Assembly (NCBI RefSeq): GCF_000264995.1
Contig: NW_006767459.1
Location: forward strand, 1-24,687
Reading direction: 5' to 3'
Source of the DNA: Punctularia strigosozonata HHB-11173 SS5
Taxonomy: Eukaryota > Basidiomycota > Agaricomycetes > Corticiales > Punctulariaceae
DNA: 24,687 nucleotides
Shown here: positions 5,616-23,307 of the stretch, piece by piece
Layout: each line of letters starts with the position of its first letter
Numbering within the stretch: position 1 is the stretch's first letter
The notes under the pieces: model-generated
What the model saw: the letters and a program-made list of their open reading frames with translations, nothing else
Databases searched by the model: none
What the model was told of the DNA's origin: nothing
Translations under genes and position numbers: made by a program

Positions 5616-6097
5616 TATCAGTGAAAGCCATCTGTACATATATGATTGTTGCTGTTCTCGGCATCTGTAGCGTCCTTGTTCGCGACCATTTATGCTTTCC
5701 AGTACATTACCAGACGGAGAACACGTCCATGTATGCTAGGTGGTAAACGAGCGTTTCCAGGTGCGGGAGAGCAACCCGAGCTCGCGAAACAACATTTCCA
5801 ACACACTGTATTCAGCCACACCTTGCAGATACGACGCGGATGCACAAAAGTTGAGTGTGGTGGCGCAAGAAACGCGCGCGCGCCAATACTTTTGCAAACA
5901 GCAATAATACAACGCGATCCTTTTCTGGAACAAGACGAGCGGTGGCGTATGCATGTGACCAATACATCCCCAAGACAGCATCGATGGATACATTGGTGAC
6001 ATATCGAGTATCGTCCTTGTAAATTGCATTGAGGCGAGCGCTGCATCGTATTTAACAGGTTCCGAACTTATACCATCTGGTTCTTACTCTTCCGCTA
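5616..6097. other. Intergenic; upstream region of transposase
   Basis: No gene is supported. Hydrophobic open frames at 5640-5750 might be a last exon of the preceding WD40-like gene, but no splice join keeps the frame. A TATTTAA-like stretch lies at about 6049-6055, some 45 bp before the transposase ATG, which is a weak promoter candidate. I searched for CACTA-type termini here and did not find a convincing one. Confidence 0.4.
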
Positions 6098-9000
6098 ATG
6101 CCTGCTCGCTCCTACACGGCGCTCAAGCGGGCGGGGCGCCTCCAAGCCTTGCATGATACTCCTCTATCTCCCGACGTCGCCTCCGACGTGAATGCAGCAG
6201 ACACACTAACTCAGGAGGTCTTCGGCCTCACAGTTGCGGACGACGGCATCATTTCTGATTCACGTCCCGGGCCCTTATGGGCGTCACGACAGGCAAAGCT
6301 TCCTGATGCAGCGATCTCTTCCACCGCCCATATTGTGGACTCACTGAACGATGTCATTCGGGTGTCAATTCCAGCATCCGATCCTAGTCCCCCCGCATCG
6401 GCGGGAGCTGCGATGGCTGAGTCCGGGTCAACCATTTCCCCTGCTGTCCCCACACCGACCGGAACCGTCGCCGACGCATCGTCCACGTTCACCGGGCATT
6501 CGACACGCTTTGAGCGGAGAAGTGACAACCTAACGCGCCGTGCAATTGTTTGTTTGAACCACATCGAGATGGACATTTCATTGTACATGGAGCGCAAACG
6601 GGTCTTAGATGTCGACAGATCACTCAACTCTTTTCTCGAGTTGAGAGACCGTCTAGATCGCATCAAGGAGAACGTTGCTGGCATCACCCGGAGGATTGAC
6701 GCTGTTATCGATGGGAAACGGCGAGTTGAGGGTCAGCTTGCCGTCCTTTACAGCGAACTTGAAAGATGGAAGGACCAGATTAAGCTGGGACCTGCGTCTT
6801 GCGTGTATGACTCTGGTGTGTTCTGACTTGGTTGTATACTCCTTGGCCTCATTTCCTTGCAGGACACCATTTCGATCATCCTGTCGATAAGCTCTCTACC
6901 TTTGCTCAGGTTCTTTTGGTCTTGGTGGTATTTTGCCGCATCATCATGCGCATCAGCGAACGTGACGGCGATTTTATTCTTGGCCTACTGTCTATCGCGA
7001 TGGCCCTCCTTCCCACTGGTTTTCATAATCCATTTGCGTCAGGACCCAGTCGTGAATTACCGAGGACTCTGAGCGCAGTTCTCAACCTCTTCAAACTCGA
7101 TGGACAGTTTCTCACCTACGCCACGTGCACAGAATGTCACCAAACCCATCCGCCTGACAGATCAGGCATATATCCTCAGTATTGCACGAATCAGCCCGTT
7201 CCCGGAACCGCTTGCCGTGCACAGTTGCTGAATGCGGGTGGAAATCCTATCAAACCGTTCCAATACCATCTATTCTGCGACTATCTCGCTGGCATCTTTT
7301 CAAATCGTGAGCTGGAGGAAGCCATCGATGCCTGTACCCGGAGTACAGGCCGTAGTTCCTCCACGCCAGGTGCAATTCACGGGCCTTTTGATGCACGTTT
7401 CATCAAGGAATTCAAAGGCCCCGATGGGAAACCTTTCTCTGTTCGTCCTATGGGTCCCGATGGTCATCCGGGGTCTGAAAGCCGTCTGTTCTTTTCCCTT
7501 TTTGTTGATTTCTTCAACGTCGAATGGTCTAATCTCCATGGAAACAAGAACTCTACAGGCGTCATCGCCTTAGCATGCCTCAATCTCCCAATTGGGGTCC
7601 GATACGCCCCTGAAAATCTCTATCTTGCTGCTCTGGTCCCAGGTCCTCAAGAGCCATCCCTAACAGCTCTGAATCATTACATCCGACCCATTATAGACGA
7701 TTTCGTCACTGGCTGGCATGACGGTTTCTTTCTGTCCCGCACTGCATGTTACAACAGTGGCCGTCTCGCCCGAGTAGCCCTTGCTAACGCTGTGTGCGAT
7801 CTACCAGCTGCTCGGAAAATAGCGTCCTTAGCGCCGTCAATATCGAAGAAGTTTTGCAGTGTATGCAATTGTTGGCATCCTGTGGACCCAACAGACCGCC
7901 GATGGCGATTGACCAAACTGGGCAGGGTCGATTACCAGCAGTGGCGTTGTCGGAACGTTGCCGAGATGCGCGTTGCGGCGGAGAAATGGAGAGATGCTAC
8001 GTCCGAGGAACAGCGGACGCGGCTTTTTCTTGAAACGGGTGTGCGCTGGTCCGAACTTTGGCGGCTACCGTACTGGGATCCGACCCAACAACTCGTTGTT
8101 GACAGCATGCATTGTCTTCTCGAGGGTCTAGCTCACTTTCACTACGTTTCAGTACTGCGCCTAACAGAAAGTGAGGCTTTCGCGAAGGTCAAAGGTCGTC
8201 CTGCCTTCCACTACGAGTTCCAAATTCCCGAAGTTGACGACGAATCCTTGCTTCCGGTCCCAAATCCCCCCTTTCCACCACGGAATGCCTCATGGACAAG
8301 TGCTAATGTCAAGGACATCGAGCGAATACATCGCGACCTTATTTCGGAAATCGCGGCTATCGATGAGACCGATGACGATGACGAGCAGGAGGACAAGGAC
8401 GGTGACATGGGCCACCCCCTGACATTGCAGGCGCTGGAGGACCGGCTGCGGAAACGGTCGCTACGAGCACTAACTTTTGTTGCCGTGGATGATCTTCGCC
8501 TCCCCATCCCCCCACCTAGCCATCGGCGACCCCAGAATCTTAAGCCTCAAAGGCACGAGCTAGCGAAGGCCCTGGTGGGATGGGTGTGTCTCTTGTCTGA
8601 TTGACCTGAATCTACGGACTCATGTTCTTCAGCGTCGGCAGCACCCCTGGAGGTCGTCGACTCCGTTGATCCGAACATCAGACCCGGAAGTATTGAAGAA
8701 GCTTCGCAAAGTCATCAAAACGACAACACGGCCGTCCTGGATCCAATCCGTACCTGCTAACTTCGGGTCGGCTGCCGCTGGCAGCGTAAAAGCTGACGAA
8801 TGGCGTACGCTGTTCCGCATATACCTTCCGCTCACCCTCATCATCATGTGGGGTGAAGCTGCACCTACCGACCCTCATAAGCTTGCGCCATTTCTTGACC
8901 ACACCATGTCGCTTGTCTGTGCCCTATCTCTTGCATGTCGACGTGTTACCAGTGAAGCTATGGCAACTGCATATCGCAAGTCCATCGCCGACTATGTGTC

Positions 9001-9885
9001 CCGCTTACCGACGCTCTATCCGGACCTTGTCCCCCGATCTAATCATCATATGGCCTTTCATATCTATGATTTCCTTCTTTTGTTTGGACCTGTACACTCG
9101 TGGTGGTGCTTTCCGTTTGAACGGCTAATAGGATGGCTTCAGAACACTCCACACAACCATCGGCTAGGTCACATCATTTGACACCTCATTGAGAACAGGA
9201 CTCATTTTTATCCCGTCCAGGTTTCCTTGAAGGCACCGTACACCGCGCCTGTGTCGCAGCTGGCAATTTCAGGCGGTGGTTACGTCGGCCTGAGTCTCCT
9301 GAATCTCTTCGTCAGTGCGAAGATTTATTCCGACGAATCTACGGCACCCAGCCTGACGATCATCCTGGCTTGTTCGAAGAACGGTTCGCCTGCGAGGAAG
9401 AACTGGCACCGAAAGTACAGACATCGGTACCGCTGGATCTCCAGCACCTTGTTCCGGATGGCCGGAGGTTCATATATCAGCGAGCACGTCTTCGCGCGCA
9501 TGGCACAATATACGCTCGCTCCAGGACTCATCGAGGCAATAGCCAGATAGCCTTCCACCCGAGCGGCGATCCGAAAGAGACTCTTGTTCCGGGAACTATT
9601 GAGTATATCTTCGCGTTAGAAGACTCCTTCTCCTTTGCTGTTCGGAGGTTCAAGTCCCTAGCGCCGGAGACGCACGATTCTTTCAATCGCTGGCTGGAGT
9701 TTCCGGCGAAGCTTTGGTCTGCAGAGCAGGAGGAACAACTTGAAATCGTCACCGTGAACTCGGTGTCGTGCCAATTTGCACTCCTTCAACTCTCAGAGAA
9801 GACCGTTGTGGTCCTTCAGCTCCATAGGGTACGCATCGCTCACCCCGGGAGTTTAGGATGCTGATAACGTTATTTCACAGTATTG
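6098..9885 (+). CDS. Plavaka/Tnp2-type CACTA-like DDE transposase
   Basis: The exons 6098-6815, 6863-8583, 8633-9167 and 9221-9828 join in frame through introns of 47, 49 and 53 nt. A further 52-nt intron leads to a two-codon last exon (Tyr-stop), giving about 1195 aa. Residues 1-235 are Ser/Thr-rich, then a coiled-coil-like helix. Cysteines at about 328, 331, 347 and 357 (CTEC...C...C) and again near 571-576 (CSVCNC) look like zinc ligands. Candidate catalytic residues are Asp 455 (SLFVDFF), Asp 653 (VVDSMH) and Glu 869 (KADEWRT). This layout matches basidiomycete Plavaka/Transposase_21 proteins recalled from the family. Frames and splice sites are clean, suggesting a young copy. The exception is the extreme 3' end: after the last intron a plausible tail (VVSRPDPERPEWAHMPR) continues in a different frame. 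No terminal repeats were found. Confidence 0.86.
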
Positions 9886-10300: not shown

Positions 10301-10983
10301 CCTATGAGACTGGACTGCATGATCTCCTGTGAGATGTACACGTTGCAGAGGAAGTTGAGCGCTTCAACCAAGGTCTAATAGAACACGTAGTCGATATATT
10401 CATGTACGGGATTGTTCGGTGGTGTTCTTATCGCGATTCTTTGCCATATCGGTGGTCGCGGGCGAACGTCATGCCAAAAATTGTGAACATCCACGAGTTT
10501 CGAGCCGTGACTACATGAGTACGGGGACGGTGTCGGGTAAACGGAAATTCGCCCTTCGCTCTGTATGGTGCCGAAAAGTTGCGACTCGCCGCAGGAGAAC
10601 GTAACGCGACCGCGGAGAGTGGTTTGAGCCGAACCAGTAAAAGGCATCGTGCTCGACTCAACCGATCAACTGGCTTAGTTGATGGAGATCAAAGTTCGTA
10701 CGATGAACGCTCGAAAGGGATGGGATGATGAGAGCGTTAAAGACGATAAGGCAAAGTAAAAGTACACAGAAGCATATTTGAGCAATACCGAGTGCGACGA
10801 ATATCATGAGCCACATCCGAGGACAAAAAGACATCTTAGGCTCACCGTCCATTCGTTGCCCGTGCGACGGCGCCACAGTCCCACAATATTGGGCGAGGAC
10901 AGAACCGTCACCGTACATACAGTCACAATAGCGTGTGAATATTCGGTGGAGGGCCCTGCGTAACGCATGGTCACATCGCAAAT
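10301..10983 (+). repeat. Diverged end-repeat copy, left of gap (683 bp)
   Basis: This block is identical to 11218-11900, which lies on the other side of the run of Ns, with a constant offset of 917. The part from about 10460 to 10983 aligns, with clear divergence, to the inverted repeat at 1-457 in the same orientation. Shared words include ATTTGAGCAATACCGAGTG, TTAGGCTCACCGTC and GAACCGTCACCGT. The part before about 10460 shows no match elsewhere in the window. Confidence 0.9.
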
Positions 10984-11217
10984 NNNNNNNNNNNNNNNNN
11001 NNNNNNNNNNNNNNNNNNNNNNNNNNNNNNNNNNNNNNNNNNNNNNNNNNNNNNNNNNNNNNNNNNNNNNNNNNNNNNNNNNNNNNNNNNNNNNNNNNNN
11101 NNNNNNNNNNNNNNNNNNNNNNNNNNNNNNNNNNNNNNNNNNNNNNNNNNNNNNNNNNNNNNNNNNNNNNNNNNNNNNNNNNNNNNNNNNNNNNNNNNNN
11201 NNNNNNNNNNNNNNNNN
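10984..11217. other. Assembly gap (234 Ns)
   Basis: A run of 234 undetermined bases. Both flanks carry the same 683-bp sequence in the same direction, so the true distance may be zero or negative. Confidence 0.99.
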
Positions 11218-11900
11218 CCTATGAGACTGGACTGCATGATCTCCTGTGAGATGTACACGTTGCAGAGGAAGTTGAGCGCTTCAACCAAGGTCTAATAGAA
11301 CACGTAGTCGATATATTCATGTACGGGATTGTTCGGTGGTGTTCTTATCGCGATTCTTTGCCATATCGGTGGTCGCGGGCGAACGTCATGCCAAAAATTG
11401 TGAACATCCACGAGTTTCGAGCCGTGACTACATGAGTACGGGGACGGTGTCGGGTAAACGGAAATTCGCCCTTCGCTCTGTATGGTGCCGAAAAGTTGCG
11501 ACTCGCCGCAGGAGAACGTAACGCGACCGCGGAGAGTGGTTTGAGCCGAACCAGTAAAAGGCATCGTGCTCGACTCAACCGATCAACTGGCTTAGTTGAT
11601 GGAGATCAAAGTTCGTACGATGAACGCTCGAAAGGGATGGGATGATGAGAGCGTTAAAGACGATAAGGCAAAGTAAAAGTACACAGAAGCATATTTGAGC
11701 AATACCGAGTGCGACGAATATCATGAGCCACATCCGAGGACAAAAAGACATCTTAGGCTCACCGTCCATTCGTTGCCCGTGCGACGGCGCCACAGTCCCA
11801 CAATATTGGGCGAGGACAGAACCGTCACCGTACATACAGTCACAATAGCGTGTGAATATTCGGTGGAGGGCCCTGCGTAACGCATGGTCACATCGCAAAT
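11218..11900 (+). repeat. Second identical 683-bp block, right of gap
   Basis: Same sequence as 10301-10983, as far as I can see without a single difference. Other copies of this family in the window differ at many sites, so perfect identity at a gap points to a duplicated contig end rather than a biological tandem repeat. It belongs to the same family as the inverted repeat arms at the window ends. Confidence 0.9.
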
Positions 11901-16656: not shown

Positions 16657-16841
16657 GGCGGGCAATGTCGGGGGGTGGGTGATAGCGGTACCAGGGGCGG
16701 GCGATGCGGGTAGTGCGAGCCCGCTGTGCGTTGCGCTAGACGGGCAGTTTGGGTAGTCAAACGCAGGCTGGGCGTTACCGATGTCAATATCGGTATCGCC
16801 GTCGTCGTGCGCAGCATCCCCGGCATCGCTTGTGGAGGTCG

Positions 16842-17150: not shown

Positions 17151-17637
17151 TCGGTATCATGTGGTGCGTGGCGTTGTCGTTGTTCGCGGGTCGTCGACCG
17201 GTCCTTGCAGGTCTGATTTGCCCTTCAGTGACATTCGTCGAAGCACGTTCGCATTTTCTGCGCCAGCAGTCTGTCCAAAATTCAGTAAATCTTGCACCCG
17301 AGAGTTGATAAGAACCTATACTAACGAGATACGACCATGTGCGGAGCGCTGACAACAGTCGAGAGCAGGGAAACCATGGTGCAGTCGCGAGCCCCTAGTG
17401 TAGCGTCAGTTCTTGCATTTCTTGAGGACAGTGAAAGGGGGTAATTGTAGGGCGCTCTCTCCATCGACACAAGTATAATTCCTAGCGGAGGTCCCTGTGG
17501 GGCATATTCCAGCCGGATACCAGGACGAGACGGGATCGTGGCCGGAGGCAAGCAAGCATTGTGTGGCCATGCGCGCGAACTCGGTCTCAACAACAAACAC
17601 ACTCTGGTCGCACTCAGCACATCTGAACCTGTCATAC
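17151..17637. other. Spacer before the dioxygenase gene
   Basis: No gene is assigned. From 17406 to 17639 both strands are open. The minus strand starts with ATG and has a cysteine pair (RCAECDQSVFVVETEFARM), while the plus strand runs into the dioxygenase frame with no ATG until 17638. I cannot tell which, if either, is coding. Confidence 0.35.
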
Positions 17638-19371
17638 ATGCCATCTACAGAGGATGCCGAGTTCTACGCTGAATATCTCGATATCCAAGTCAATCAAAGC
17701 CTGAGGAGCCTCGTCAGAGATGCGGAGCAGTATCAAATGATGGGCTCTGACCCCCTTGCCGCACAGGGAGATAGCCCCTTGGAGTACTGGGAGCAGGGCA
17801 TAGGTGTGGAGGATGAAGATCCGGCGGAAGCCCAGGAAAACGTCAATAGAGAAGATACGGAGCAAGATGCCGGTATTGGTGATGTTCGTGCTGATGCACT
17901 ACCCGTTGAAAACTCAGGGTATGTGTTCGACGAACATACAATAAACTGTACTAATATACCATAGACTGGCTACTGGACAGAGCAATAAGAAAAAGTGAGC
18001 CGCTAAATACCAATATTTCCTGATACCACTCACGAACGTTCATTCAGAACACACAAACACAGGCACATGAAGGCCCAAGTGATGCGAAGGAAGGCCAAGA
18101 ATAAAGCTGCGGCGCGCTCCATCGATAGACTTCCACATATAGCCAAGGCCGTTATCGTGTCCAGAAAACTCTCCGACATTGATCATGTTACAACGACGGT
18201 GGACTTCATTGACACACCTACAAAGGGGGCTTGGAAGGGACATACTACTGCCCCACGTGAAGTCCCTAATATGGATGATCTGCTGAATCGGGGATTCAAA
18301 CTGATTGAGTGGGACGCCTCGTATGTCACATAGTGTCATCCTGTTATTGTGTTGAATCAAGCTGATGCCATTTGTAGACGCCCCTTGGTCGTAACCGATT
18401 CCGAAGGGCGAATTATGGTTGCCTTCCATCCTGCTCCTCCTGACAAGGATGATGGCCCAGCATTCTCTGCCACTTGTGACCGCGTTGCCAAGAAGCTGTA
18501 CGATCTGGGTAAGGACCCAAAGTTGCAAGCTAGGTTTGATCCGGGGAAGGATTATCACCGAAGGGGCACCTTTCCAGTACTGACCACCGGCGTCGCCATG
18601 GGTGGAGGTCAGAAAGGTCCCATGAATCTCGTCAAGGACATGGGCCAGGTTCACAGAGGAAAGGCTCTCAAAGAACTGTTAGCTGACCCAGATGTACAGC
18701 GTTTGGCAAACTTCGGAAGTAGTGAGTAAATGTGTGCACTATGCAAACTTTCCCTTGCTTATTCCATATTAGCAAACCTGCTATACACTGCGCCAAAGTT
18801 GTACAAATACTACAACGATGTCGTCTGCCGGACAGAAAAGTTTGATCCCTCTCTTCAATTTCCTTTCCCAAAGTCTGTGTTCAGCATGGCGACTTTCAAC
18901 CTCGGAGGATGTGTTTTCACCGAGCGTCATTTTGATGTGTGCGACTTTGCTGGAGGGCTTTGCTCTATTCAGGCGCTTGGCAACTACAATCACAAGAAAT
19001 GTGGCCATCTCGTTCTATATGAGCTCAGACTCGTCATCGAATTTCCACCGAGGTCGGAGGCCTCCATCCCATCAGCATGCGTTTCTCACTCCAACATTCC
19101 TGTGACTGAGGAAGACGAGTTCCGTGCATCCTTCACTCAATACACCTTGGGCGGACTATGCCAATGGGATGCTTGCGACCAGCGCACTATCAAGTGGATG
19201 AAGGAGAACAATCCTGATGCGCTGGCTCAGTACGAGGCAGTGGGTAAGGCAACAAGATGGGAGGAGCACGTCAAGAGGTTCAGCAAGCTGAATGAGCTCG
19301 CTAATGATATACTCTCTATCTCTAAAGGTGTGGGTGTCAAGCGGAAACGGAAGGTGTCAGACGCAACTTAG
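17638..19371 (+). CDS. TET/JBP-like 2-oxoglutarate/Fe(II) dioxygenase
   Basis: Five exons join perfectly: 17638-17918, 17965-17994, 18048-18320, 18378-18721 and 18773-19371. The introns are 46-57 nt and the product is about 508 aa. The catalytic core is near the C-terminus: GGCVFTERHFDVCDFAGG gives the iron ligands His 362 and Asp 364, CVSHSNIPV gives the distal His 415, and FRASFTQYTLGGL gives Arg 427 for 2-oxoglutarate. These match the fungal 2OGFeDO JBP1/TET family, whose studied members oxidise 5-methylcytosine in DNA. Residues 1-95 are acidic. A lysine/arginine-rich patch follows (near 103-128), possibly for nuclear entry or DNA contact. A basic tail VKRKRKV ends the protein. No stop or frameshift was seen. 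Fungal TET/JBP genes are known to be expanded and linked to transposons. Here the gene converges on an integrase with 31 bp between stops. Confidence 0.87.
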
Positions 19372-19402
19372 TTATGGTATCATATTCTGTGACTATATAG
19401 GT

Positions 19403-21328
19403 CTAAAACATGTCTCCATACAATACCCTTGCCATTGTGAGAGAATAAGACCATAGAGTGGGAATATCTGAAGAGCTTGGAAGCTGCGCTGACCACTGTG
19501 TTAGCAGTTCGTTGAAATGTCGGCTCTGTAGATCGTCTAGTATCTGATGGGGTGGGTCCACCGGTACCGAATTAAGATGTTCTGGTGGGCCACTGCGACC
19601 TAACCATGAGCCTCCATCGCCTTGATCGCGGCGAGGATTTTGGATATGATTGGCCAGGTTATCGTCCCGAAGTGCCTCCCAGTCTACGCCAAACACCTCC
19701 AACTCATCCTCAGGCATTGCTTCATCAACAGACAATAACTGGTCACCACGAACGCCATGCACATACATATCAAAAAAGAACATATCTGCAGGGGATCTGT
19801 TAGGGCCACCGCGGATTCGGATCTGATGTTGGCTCCATGATTGGGCAAAGAATGTGAGTTCCTGATTGATCCGTGGCAGGAACAAATAATGGAGGAGCCA
19901 GAGGTGATTAGAGTTATTAACGTCGAGGCCATGACGTAATTCTAGATTGTAGAAAGCTTCTGACCAAGCTGCACCAACTTGAGAAGTCACGTCCACCCAC
20001 AATCTTTCGATGCGGACATTATGAACACTCCTGGTGGGAAGTTATATCAAGACCCTTTTGAAAATTTGGGCAGACACATACCGTCCCCAAATGTACGAGC
20101 CTCGTCGCTCTCCGCGATAGGCTTCCATCCATGCAGCATGCGGTATATTTTCAACTCCGTGATCTCCCCGTATCCTCGATGGAATCCCATACTGTAAGGC
20201 GGCCTCAAGAAATACATCGAGAACAGTCTGGCCACGGTTGTTATTGCTCGCTCTTAACCCTGTGATGAGGTGCGAGTATCCATCGATAAACCCATGTATC
20301 ACAATTCGCCACCGGATAAGACCTTGACACAGATAAGATCGCTGGTAATTGCAGTAGATCGTGCATAGTACTTACCATGCTGACCATCATGATGCCAGAG
20401 TGCATTAGGTCCTGGAACAGAATATATTCTTCGCCGAATACGGATACGATCAAAGGTTCGGTGAATAGGATCAATGCGGCGTAACGACTCCTGTATGCGT
20501 TCTCCAGGAACTCTATGTCCTAGATTTAGCAGCATACCATTGATCATGGTAATACCTGCACGGCGGTAGCGGGTGCGAAGCTGGATAATTAGGGCATCAA
20601 GGTCCTGATCTGACAATGTAGAGACCGGGCGCGTGTAGGAAGTACTTTGATGCGGAATTTCTGTATGAGCCTCTCCTACATCGGTTGTAGCGGGGTCAAG
20701 GAGGGGGTCACCATTACTTGGGTCATTGTCCAAATTAATAGTGGGACCGACCGCTGCTGGGTTGGCAGAAGGAGTATTTTCTCTGGGTAATCTGTTCCTT
20801 AACGGAGCTTGTTGTGGTTCCACGATGCCATAGTCCAACAGTGCATTACGAACAGTTGTCCTGCTAACTCCCAGAAAGCATGCAACTGCAGCAGTGGAGC
20901 AGAGGCTATAGGCCGAACGGAGGAATTGTTCATCGATATAGATCCGTGGACGACCAGGACCCCTAGAAGCAGCCTCCTGTATAATGGTAGGATGACCATG
21001 ATGGGACGCGTCCAATGTATCACGATAGTGTTCACGGATATCTCCTCTCATGCCCTCAATGCCATGCATTACCGTGCGTAACTCATCTGCGGGAAAGAGA
21101 TGTGTATGCTGGGTGGGCCATCAGACTCTAGTATACAGACAAGAAAGATCAAACTCAGACCGATGATATGAGTTGAGATCATTCGTCTAGGCTATTGCCC
21201 ACCTGCTCGATTCTCCGGGGATCAAGTTCGGCGGGATCTCTCTGCACGATCTCCTGAACTGCCTGGAGAAAACCACGATACCGAGATCGGAATTCTGCAA
21301 GTAGCTGTGATTCACGATGGGCATCCAT
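19403..21328 (-). CDS. Integrase-core (rve-type) DDE transposase
   Basis: Exons on the minus strand are 21086-20376, 20322-20082 and 20030-19403, with introns of 53 and 51 nt, all in phase. They hold an HTH-like segment (FLGVSRTTVRNALLDYG) and an integrase fold. Counting from ATG 21069, the likely catalytic acids are Asp 228 (WHHDGQHG), Asp 245 (GFIDGYS), Asp 285 (RGDHGVEN) and Glu 320 (NVRIERLW). The whole region closely matches agaricomycete integrase-core proteins as I recall them. The family N-terminus (MDAHRESQLLAEFRSRYR) is present from ATG 21328 but ends at TGA 21181-21179, and I found no splice join to 21086 that keeps the frame. Either the 5' end is damaged, or translation starts at 21069 (about 520 aa). 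It runs tail to tail with the TET/JBP-like gene, so both may belong to one element. Confidence 0.88.
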
Positions 21329-22027
21329 CGGAGCGGCAGATAGTGACTGACAGTATAGCAATGCTCTACTGATTGGATATACGCAGTACAATCCTGACAA
21401 ACCCGAATCTGAACAGTGGCTGTGTAGAGTGTAGAGCCACTTAGCCAGAAACCCAGAACCTGGGCTTGTAGATCAGTGAGCTTCAGACACGGCAAACCTA
21501 CAACCAAAAACCTGCAATATAGATTAATCAGCTACTCTCGGTGATGTGTGATACACAGTAAAACTAAGTATATGTTGCTATTAAAAGGCATACAGCTACA
21601 CTCAATACTTACAATCTATGACTACACGTCAACCTTGGTATTACCGGAGACCAGAAAGCTGGGACACTGATTTGCATAAAAGCCAAAACCTGAAAGCACG
21701 AAGCAGACACCAGCAGTGCATTTTAGTCGCGGAACTACCATTTCAGGCAGGTGAGTGGCTTTAGCGACCTCGGCAGTGCGTGGCGGTGCTCAGGAAGGTT
21801 CGGCAATGCATGAAACCGTGAACCTGAAAGTGCAATTATGCAACGAAAACTGAGGCCATAAAGGAGGGTACGGTGAATCTCAAAGATGAATTAATATTGT
21901 GAACTCGACACGCGCGACGTGTCACGCGCGCTTTACAGACTGGAGCTTTCCGATTACTTGCTTCGCAACGACATAGTAGCAACACTGTTCCCTTATCTTT
22001 GTGGGATACAGATACGCAAGGCTCGGA
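21329..22027. other. Upstream region of integrase; no gene
   Basis: This is relatively AT-rich sequence with loosely repeated words (CCTGAAAGCACG and CCTGAAAGTGCAA; CAGTGCATTTT, CAGTGCGTGG and CAATGCATGA) between about 21680 and 21835. They could be subterminal repeats of the element that carries the integrase. A short hairpin-capable GC motif, GACACGCGCGACGTGTC, lies near 21907-21923. I could not find a matching inverted end on the left side. Confidence 0.35.
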
Positions 22028-23307
22028 TCATCGGGCGCTATAGAAGTTCAGGGGTTCGGGAAAAAAATCGCGAAGTACATCTTGATTTGGATCGTGCCAA
22101 TTGTGCTCCGAGTCCTCCAATGCTTCGTATGGCACAGCGGGAAAACGCCCAACAAGCCTGCTCATACGACGATTGAGGGTCGGCCGTATCGTCAGCTTGA
22201 AATAGCATACATTAGGGAAGGTCTTGTACAGGAGGGAAATGTACACTCACTCGCTGGCGGCACACGGGACAGCTATATCTCGGCATTGTACGATCATGCA
22301 TTGCCGTGGACAAGACAAGGCGTAGCACGGAGGACAACATCATATTGCGTCGAATGTCCCCGGCCACATGTTGAAGGTTTAACGGAAGAGAGAAAGCATC
22401 AGACCCTTGGAGCCGGTGAATTCGCGCTGGGTCGTAAACCGGTCGACCGCTGATCGTGCGATGCAGTTCAAGGTGTTCATTAAACCATGCGGCAACGCAG
22501 CCTCGACAGAAGGTGTGGCCGCATGCGAGGCTGAAGTAAGCGTGAGCTCACAGATTCCCTACGAAGTTGCAAGACCTACGTAACAGGATTCCGGAGGCGT
22601 TGCGCGCAAACCTGGCAATGGAGGTCGTCCTCAATCTCCGAAAGCCTCTGTTGAAGGGGTTGCAGGTGCTGACGAGCCTGCGTCAGCTCATCCCGTGCTT
22701 GTAGCAATGCATTTTGCGCGACGTCAGCACGTTCCTGAGCCTGGACATTCTCTTCCTGCGCAATGGCTGCCGCTTTCTTGGCCTCAATGGCTTCATCCTT
22801 GGCTACCTCGAGCTGGGCGCTCACGTCCTCAAAGTCTTTCAGACGGAATGACGGCGGCTGAGAACATGTCAACAAATGATCACCACCTTGAGGGCAGTCG
22901 CAGGCCAACGGAGCTCACCGCACGCACGTCGTGAGTCCGGGGGCTCGAGGTCGAAGCCGTGACGGTGGCGGAGACAGTAACTGCCTCGAAGCAAGAGCCT
23001 ACAGACTGAGTAACGCATGCTGTCGTACCCTCGCGGTCAACACATCAGTCAGGGCAAGCACGCGCGGTGAGGTATCACATACCGCGTCGCCGACACCGGA
23101 ACCGGAGGAGATAATAAAATGGTAGCTTTCGTCCAAGGAGGCGTTGGCCACGTCGGCCACAATGTTGTTTGGAGGGGCGGACGCCGGACCAGGGCGAAGA
23201 TCGTCCTCACAAGTCGCGACGATTGACGGGCTGAGTGCGTCGACCGCGCGAGTACGAGGGCGGCGTCGGGCGCTCGGAGGGTTGCCCCTCGCTCTGTGAG
23301 GTGCCAT
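22028..23307 (-). CDS. RING-finger protein with coiled coil, long RING loop
   Basis: Exons on the minus strand are 23307-23083, 23029-22919, 22857-22580, 22530-22251 and 22195-22028, all phases matching, with introns of 49-61 nt and a product of about 353 aa. Residues 1-112 are low-complexity. Residues 118-190 form an Ala/Glu/Gln-rich coiled coil. A C3HC4 RING follows: Cys 193 and 196 (CQVC), Cys 208, His 210, Cys 213 and Cys 216 (CGHTFCRGC), then Cys 292 and 295 (SCPVCRQR). The gap of 75 residues between the sixth and seventh ligands exceeds the usual 4-48. RING proteins usually act as E3 ubiquitin ligases; the substrate here is unknown. The start is uncertain: ATG 23307 lies inside the repeat, while the sister copy has ATG at a position that is GCG here. 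The tail ends DFFPEPLNFYSAR. The 5' end is duplicated in inverted form at 24.3-24.6 kb. Confidence 0.8.

Follow-up and report, generated by a model that had tools for sequence, protein, structure and literature searches.

The window analysed here, which is the whole of a 24,687-bp contig (C27) in an assembly of 33.6 Mb, carries a gene for a TET/JBP-superfamily dioxygenase and a gene for an integrase-type transposase, which converge on each other. With a probability of about 60%, the pair may be taken as the main part of a single old IS3EU/GingerRoot-like transposon, now present in one copy, with a captured TET/JBP dioxygenase, in which both genes would have moved jointly. The compositional block shared by the two genes, the co-location of dioxygenase and integrase loci in the genome and the very short distance between the two stop codons together favour one element, short of proving it.

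The gene pair and the integrase-type transposase

The dioxygenase gene occupies positions 17638-19371 on the forward strand and is predicted to contain five exons (17638-17918, 17965-17994, 18048-18320, 18378-18721 and 18773-19371) coding for 508 aa. Its introns are of the GT-AG type, and no stop is found within the 508 aa once the predicted introns are removed. The gene for the rve/rva_4 integrase-type transposase is located on the reverse strand at 19403-21328, with four predicted exons (21328-21203, 21108-20376, 20322-20082 and 20030-19403) coding for 575 aa that are likewise free of stops; one of its introns has AAG at its 3' end, where YAG is usual. The exon joins in both genes are predictions from sequence alone.

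The preliminary description of this DNA had claimed a convergent pair 31 bp apart, clean reading frames, and an rve-type partner in place of a KDZ transposase, and in these points it was right. Between the forward-strand stop codon, whose last base is 19371, and the reverse-strand one, which begins at 19403, there is a gap of 31 bp (19372-19402); both spliced models (508 aa and 575 aa) are without an in-frame stop; and the spliced integrase matches the Pfam family PF24764 (rva_4) at E 2.8e-66, while no KDZ match is present on C27. Because only 31 bp separate the stops, the 3' ends of the dioxygenase and integrase transcripts very probably overlap, and this overlap could feed RNA-based silencing.

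Apart from rva_4, the integrase matches the classical rve family of Pfam slightly below the cut-off (E 3.3e-7). Among the NCBIfam families IS481 is the best match (2.5e-12), followed by IS3 (1.3e-4), and both are matched by all three integrase copies scanned. The catalytic residues D283, D340 and E375 are invariant in the three integrases aligned (window, C4 and C3), and a weak helix-turn-helix signal is seen around residues 100-138 (HTH_50, E 0.095). The integrase profile has no match among solved structures, and a scan of a viral sequence collection with the integrase gives no relative.

According to the available text of PMC10045372, IS3EU/GingerRoot and IS481EU sit near IS481 and IS3, apart from Ginger1/2 and Polinton, and the criteria for IS3EU/GingerRoot are a first D at 100-300 residues from the N-terminus and the lack of an HHCC motif. 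The window integrase, classed here by these published criteria and not by a tree, agrees with them, with D283 as its first catalytic D and its relation to IS481/IS3. It resembles IS481EU/GingerRoot, as far as these are covered in the same text (PMC10045372), in having IS481 and IS3 as its nearest prokaryotic relatives, in the long N-terminal region ahead of the first catalytic D, and in the absence of the HHCC motif, the last being judged by eye.

Two genome searches agree on five integrase loci (C27, C4, C3, C18 and C2). The window and C4 integrases are 58% identical, and the differences counted by position in the codon (0.40/0.22/0.63 and 0.37/0.27/0.65) speak for purifying selection, apparently long-lasting, along the lineages of both. 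The C18 integrase has a stop codon within the conserved core. Downstream of the integrases on C18 and C3 there is an ORF with weak similarity between the two loci (blastp 7e-6 in a set of three sequences); the C18 ORF was considered as an accessory gene and discarded, for a genome search finds only the ORF itself and the window holds no match to it.

Compositional block, element ends and co-location

Both genes are covered by one AT-richer and CpG-depleted block (17251-21900), which is the candidate extent of the element (about 4.3-4.6 kb). The observed/expected ratio (o/e) of CpG has a mean of 0.75 in nine 500-bp windows inside the block and of 1.12 in 37 outside, windows containing N being left out, and the difference has a Mann-Whitney p of 4e-6 with block limits that were drawn from the same data. 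The ratio is 0.72 over 17638-19371 and 0.81 over 19403-21328, with TpG/CpA values of 1.23 and 1.18, respectively. The other large segments of the contig, including the CACTA-like transposase at 6056-9864, have CpG o/e values of 1.02-1.18, and the short right flank (21329-22001), which is mostly inside the block, has 0.84. When the stretch from position 11.3 kb to the right end of the window is searched for a single segment, 17581-21901 scores best, and a start at 17261 comes close behind. Among overlapping 1-kb windows (those with >100 N left out), 16 of 91 fall below 0.9; fifteen of the sixteen are within the block or cross its right edge, and the remaining one (6751-7750, o/e 0.85) is in the CACTA-like transposase.

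The limits of the block are near dispersed repeats ending at 16675 and beginning at 21861. On the left, the repeat at 16200-16675 matches C1:1702946-1703421 at 98%, and the match ends at 16675. On the right, a short repeat (21861-22002) matches C17:468889-469042 at 85%, and another repeat (89% to C18:352215-353167) begins where it ends. The repeat end at 22002, of which C17 shares the final bases, was rejected as an element end, there being no matching left end in the window.

The pair is not alone in its CpG loss, since the other TET/JBP and integrase loci compared are also depleted (o/e 0.56-0.97). Among the relatives of the window dioxygenase, depletion is stronger in four of the five (0.33-0.47), and the fifth, on C17, has 0.83. 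The block is thus of the methylated kind, and a younger age or better protection may distinguish the window copy from most of its relatives.

The preliminary description had found no element ends, and searches controlled by mononucleotide shuffles of the flanks lead to the same result: no terminal inverted repeats (TIRs) with a target duplication stand out at the window pair or at the C18, C4, C3 and C2 integrases. IS3EU/GingerRoot elements have TA..TA termini and a 6-bp target-site duplication. For TA-ended candidates with a 6-bp duplication, the best observed score in the window is reached by 30 of 40 shuffles, and the corresponding numbers (of 40) are 25 for C18, 39 for C3, 20 for C2 and 2 for C4. 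In a free TIR search next to the window pair, the best score of 11.5 is beaten in two of six shuffles (12 and 12.5). A candidate element on C4 (60470-67715) has a perfect 6-bp duplication, but its ends agree at no more than 17 of 30 bases; it was set aside as borderline. The ends of the element may have decayed.

Ten TET/JBP-like loci were found in the genome, of which four come from Pfam and six, the window included, belong to the window family; both lists are lower bounds. The KDZ (PF18758) hits number 48 and merge into 29 loci, none of them on C27. A TET/JBP-like gene is present within 12 kb of three of the five integrase loci, and within 5 kb of two (distances between representative points), while the 12-kb figure for KDZ is 0/29. 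The Fisher values for this comparison at 12 kb, 0.0017 with the window and 0.011 without it (2/4), are indicative, as the limit was picked after the positions were known; at 5 kb without the window (1/4 versus 0/29) p is 0.12. None of the 29 KDZ and four Plavaka loci is within 20 kb of any of the ten dioxygenase loci found. The C18 dioxygenase (+) and integrase (-) are likewise convergent, at a distance of about 3 kb and separated by a further ORF. Those on C2 are divergent and 11 kb apart, across a stretch of withheld sequence, which is a loose association.

The alternative that two unrelated old transposon-borne genes came to lie side by side by chance on a small, transposon-rich contig should be considered here, and it is rather unlikely. 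It agrees with the lack of ends and with the single occurrence of the pair: further copies, which the preliminary description had proposed to seek in the same genome, were looked for, and the convergent pair was found nowhere else in it. It also agrees with the integrases on C3 and C4, which stand alone: in 30-kb stretches around them, for C4 short of the far ends, no TET/JBP-like ORF of at least 50 aa was detected within about 10 kb on each side. Moreover, the three co-located loci have different dioxygenase subfamilies, those near the C18 and C2 integrases being of the Pfam Tet_JBP subfamily and not of the window's, whose five relatives are found at none of the integrase loci. The co-locations on C18, where the pair is at a contig end, and on C2 may stem from common transposon-rich compartments. 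Chance does not, however, readily account for a spacing of 31 bp with both frames open, for both genes lying in a single compositional block whose limits are close to flanking repeats, or for the same proximity being seen at none of the 29 KDZ loci.

The suggestion in the preliminary description that one mobile unit carries both genes is therefore upheld in part. The shared block, the co-location of the families and the published TET-bearing IS3EU elements speak for it, and the lack of ends, the single copy and the solitary C3 and C4 integrases speak against it. Integrase copies lacking the dioxygenase, with element ends between the two genes, had been named as what would refute it; such integrases do exist on C3 and C4, but the searches revealed no element ends in between.

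The dioxygenase and its substrate

The window dioxygenase keeps the metal-binding H-x-D (in RHFDV), the distal H (in SHSNIPV) and the R (in FRASFTQY). A Pfam search with the single ORFs and with the spliced protein gives no Tet_JBP match, and the single sequence, compared with the PDB, finds no solved TET and nothing relevant. With its 400-aa core, five relatives are found in the genome (C5, C15, C12, C13 and C17). The four Pfam Tet_JBP loci are C2:2870434, C2:1251230, C18:580412 and one on C9; a profile of the six members of the window family matches the first three at 6e-10 to 3e-8 (computed with a search space of 400,000) and does not match that on C9. The H-x-D and the distal H are in register between the profile and these matches, and H, D and the distal H are invariant in all seven aligned rows (the six family members and the C18 Tet_JBP protein). 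Together with the R, which also aligns with the C18 member, these residues make up the TET/JBP triad and the 2OG-binding Arg. Judged by these residues and profiles, the window dioxygenase is a member of the TET/JBP superfamily and represents a separate, divergent subfamily. The earlier label 'TET/JBP-like' holds, accordingly, for the six-member profile, which matches three of the four Tet_JBP loci, while Pfam on the gene alone is silent.

A seven-row profile that includes the C18 Tet_JBP protein matches NgTet1 structures, which are of Naegleria Tet-like dioxygenases (5cg8 at 7.5e-4 and 4lt5 at 1.1e-3). The profile of the six family members finds no TET among solved structures up to E 10, and the link to the solved TETs thus rests on the intermediate C18 sequence. 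The single-sequence AlphaFold model of the last exon has a pLDDT of 36, which is too low for use. The PE-type TET/JBP, which according to the available text of PMC12730594 has HxE in place of HxD, is ruled out, as HxD is present in all six family members. Where CcTET has Gly331 and Asp337, two residues named in that text (PMC12730594), the window dioxygenase has Asp and Cys, respectively, by plain counting from HxD and not by structural alignment.

We infer that the substrate of the dioxygenase is 5-methylcytosine (5mC) and that the benefit to the element is anti-silencing. It is unlikely that the enzyme, instead of being a 5mC demethylase, is a passenger with a different substrate (hypermodification, 6mA or RNA). 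The divergence of the subfamily, the silence of Pfam on the gene alone, the family-only profile finding no TET structure, and the Asp and Cys counted at the two CcTET positions would all agree with such a passenger, but the H-x-D, the distal H and the R of the window enzyme align with those of the Tet_JBP member from this same genome, and with those of NgTet1 when the mixed profile is used.

It is improbable that the pair is a domesticated locus of former transposon genes retained by the host, such as, perhaps, a demethylase serving the host next to a transposase no longer in use: the single occurrence, the open frames, the purifying selection on the integrase lineage and the lack of recognisable ends would suit it, but the contig of 24.7 kb is rich in repeats with transposon remains around the pair, the CpG loss across both genes is methylation-like, and all three catalytic residues of the integrase are kept.

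Known TET-bearing transposons and the proposed mechanism

TET/JBP genes are known in 11 DNA transposon lineages according to the available text of Kojima (Biology 2025, PMC12730594). In that text (PMC12730594), TET-bearing IS3EU elements are described from rusts (Pucciniales) and Tuber indicum; those of rusts have TIRs of >30 bp together with duplications of 6 bp. Every one of these IS3EU elements, from rusts or from the truffle, has its TET gene located between the transposase and an alpha-kinase. For Agaricomycetes, the TET-bearing lineages listed there are Kyakuja, Zisupton, EnSpm, Plavaka and Helitron2, with no IS3EU among them (PMC12730594). According to the available text of the source, annotations of IS3EU itself exist for Ganoderma and Phlebopus. 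A TET-bearing IS3EU of an agaricomycete is not reported in the article texts searched, and an earlier notice, for example in supplements or in Repbase, is possible.

Like the TET-bearing IS3EU of the available text (PMC12730594), the window pair combines an IS3/IS481-related transposase with a neighbouring TET/JBP-type dioxygenase, for which an anti-silencing role has been proposed. It differs from them in that no ends and no alpha-kinase are detected, in that its dioxygenase is of the HxD type and belongs to a separate, divergent subfamily, and in that its host is an agaricomycete, to which the many KDZ and the Plavaka transposase genes of the genome also point. No alpha-kinase (PF02816) match is present on C27, but at least one relative of the window dioxygenase, that on C5, has an alpha-kinase next to it in a convergent arrangement; the ORFs next to the C15 and C13 relatives look similar by eye and have no Pfam match. 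With the TET-bearing KDZ and Plavaka transposons, as given in the same text (PMC12730594), the pair shares the dioxygenase superfamily, the link to DNA transposons and the fungal class, whereas their transposase is another than that of the window. The pair therefore probably belongs to the already known class of TET-bearing DNA transposons and is not a new kind. Somewhat more tentatively, and at slightly less than even odds, it may represent a compact two-gene agaricomycete transposon of about 4.3-4.6 kb, in which an IS3EU-like transposase is combined with an unclassified TET/JBP subfamily and the alpha-kinase is missing; oxidase genes here would then travel with integrase-type and not with KDZ elements, and the alliance of transposon and demethylase would have arisen once more.

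Under the proposed mechanism, the pair would be the worn remains of a cut-and-paste element carrying its own anti-silencing oxidase. Cutting and joining of the element ends would fall to the integrase-type enzyme, and the dioxygenase would oxidise 5-methylcytosine on the element DNA, so that silencing by the host would be weakened long enough for the element to be expressed and to move. DNA methyltransferase-type genes are present in the host genome (C5:349232 at 3.9e-13, plus two weak matches). The CpG loss over both genes suggests that the pair was methylated despite its enzyme and mutated through deamination; any protection would therefore have been incomplete or short-lived at best, limited for instance to the time around transposition. 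The earlier proposal that the element lifts the methylation of its own copies is thus narrowed, as the CpG loss of the block speaks against protection that is lasting and complete, and suggests that the element's own DNA was not fully protected over the long term.

If the pair is one element, the capture of TET/JBP genes by IS3EU-type transposons extends to another fungal class and to another oxidase subfamily, and the view of demethylase capture as a recurrent anti-silencing strategy is strengthened. The pair may also serve as a small system for asking whether an oxidase coded by a transposon protects its own DNA. For the KDZ and Plavaka elements that carry TET genes in Agaricomycetes, PMC12730594 refers to Iyer et al. 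2014, who reportedly dealt with them. In the genome studied here, KDZ transposase genes are abundant and Plavaka transposase genes are present.

Neighbours of dioxygenase relatives and of other integrases

On contig C5 (L036, C5:2003334-2006600), a relative of the window dioxygenase lies convergent to an alpha-kinase gene, the Pfam match of which was above the cut-off in the genome search. Relatives on C15 and C13 (L037 and L039) are likewise convergent to ORFs that look alpha-kinase-like by eye and are without a Pfam match. The C5 alpha-kinase and these look-alike ORFs beside dioxygenase relatives recall the alpha-kinase of the rust IS3EU elements (PMC12730594).

The ORFs located 3' of two other integrases, on C18 (L017, C18:581072-582493) and C3 (L023, C3:1535356-1536683), exhibit weak similarity to each other, and are possibly an accessory gene of the C18 and C3 integrase elements.

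CACTA-like remains

Remnants of a CACTA-like transposase occupy 6056-9864 (PF02992, 2.3e-6, slightly below the cut-off; DUF4218, 0.0056). Taken as a whole, they do not share the CpG loss of the dioxygenase-integrase pair (CpG o/e 1.02), although a single 1-kb window within them is at 0.85.

Repeats and contig ends

A perfect 683-bp direct repeat (10301-10983 and 11218-11900) flanks the stretch 10984-11217. The gene at 22212-22914 (minus strand), which encodes a RING-finger protein with a coiled-coil-like stretch, lies within a block that is repeated on C18, C9, and C13.

An inverted repeat with 99.6% identity between its arms is present at both contig ends (1-457 and 24005-24462); it may mark a larger unit or be a repeat at which the assembly stopped. 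Further diverged copies of this repeat are found at 10.5, 11.4, and 23.2 kb of the window, and on C18 and C9.
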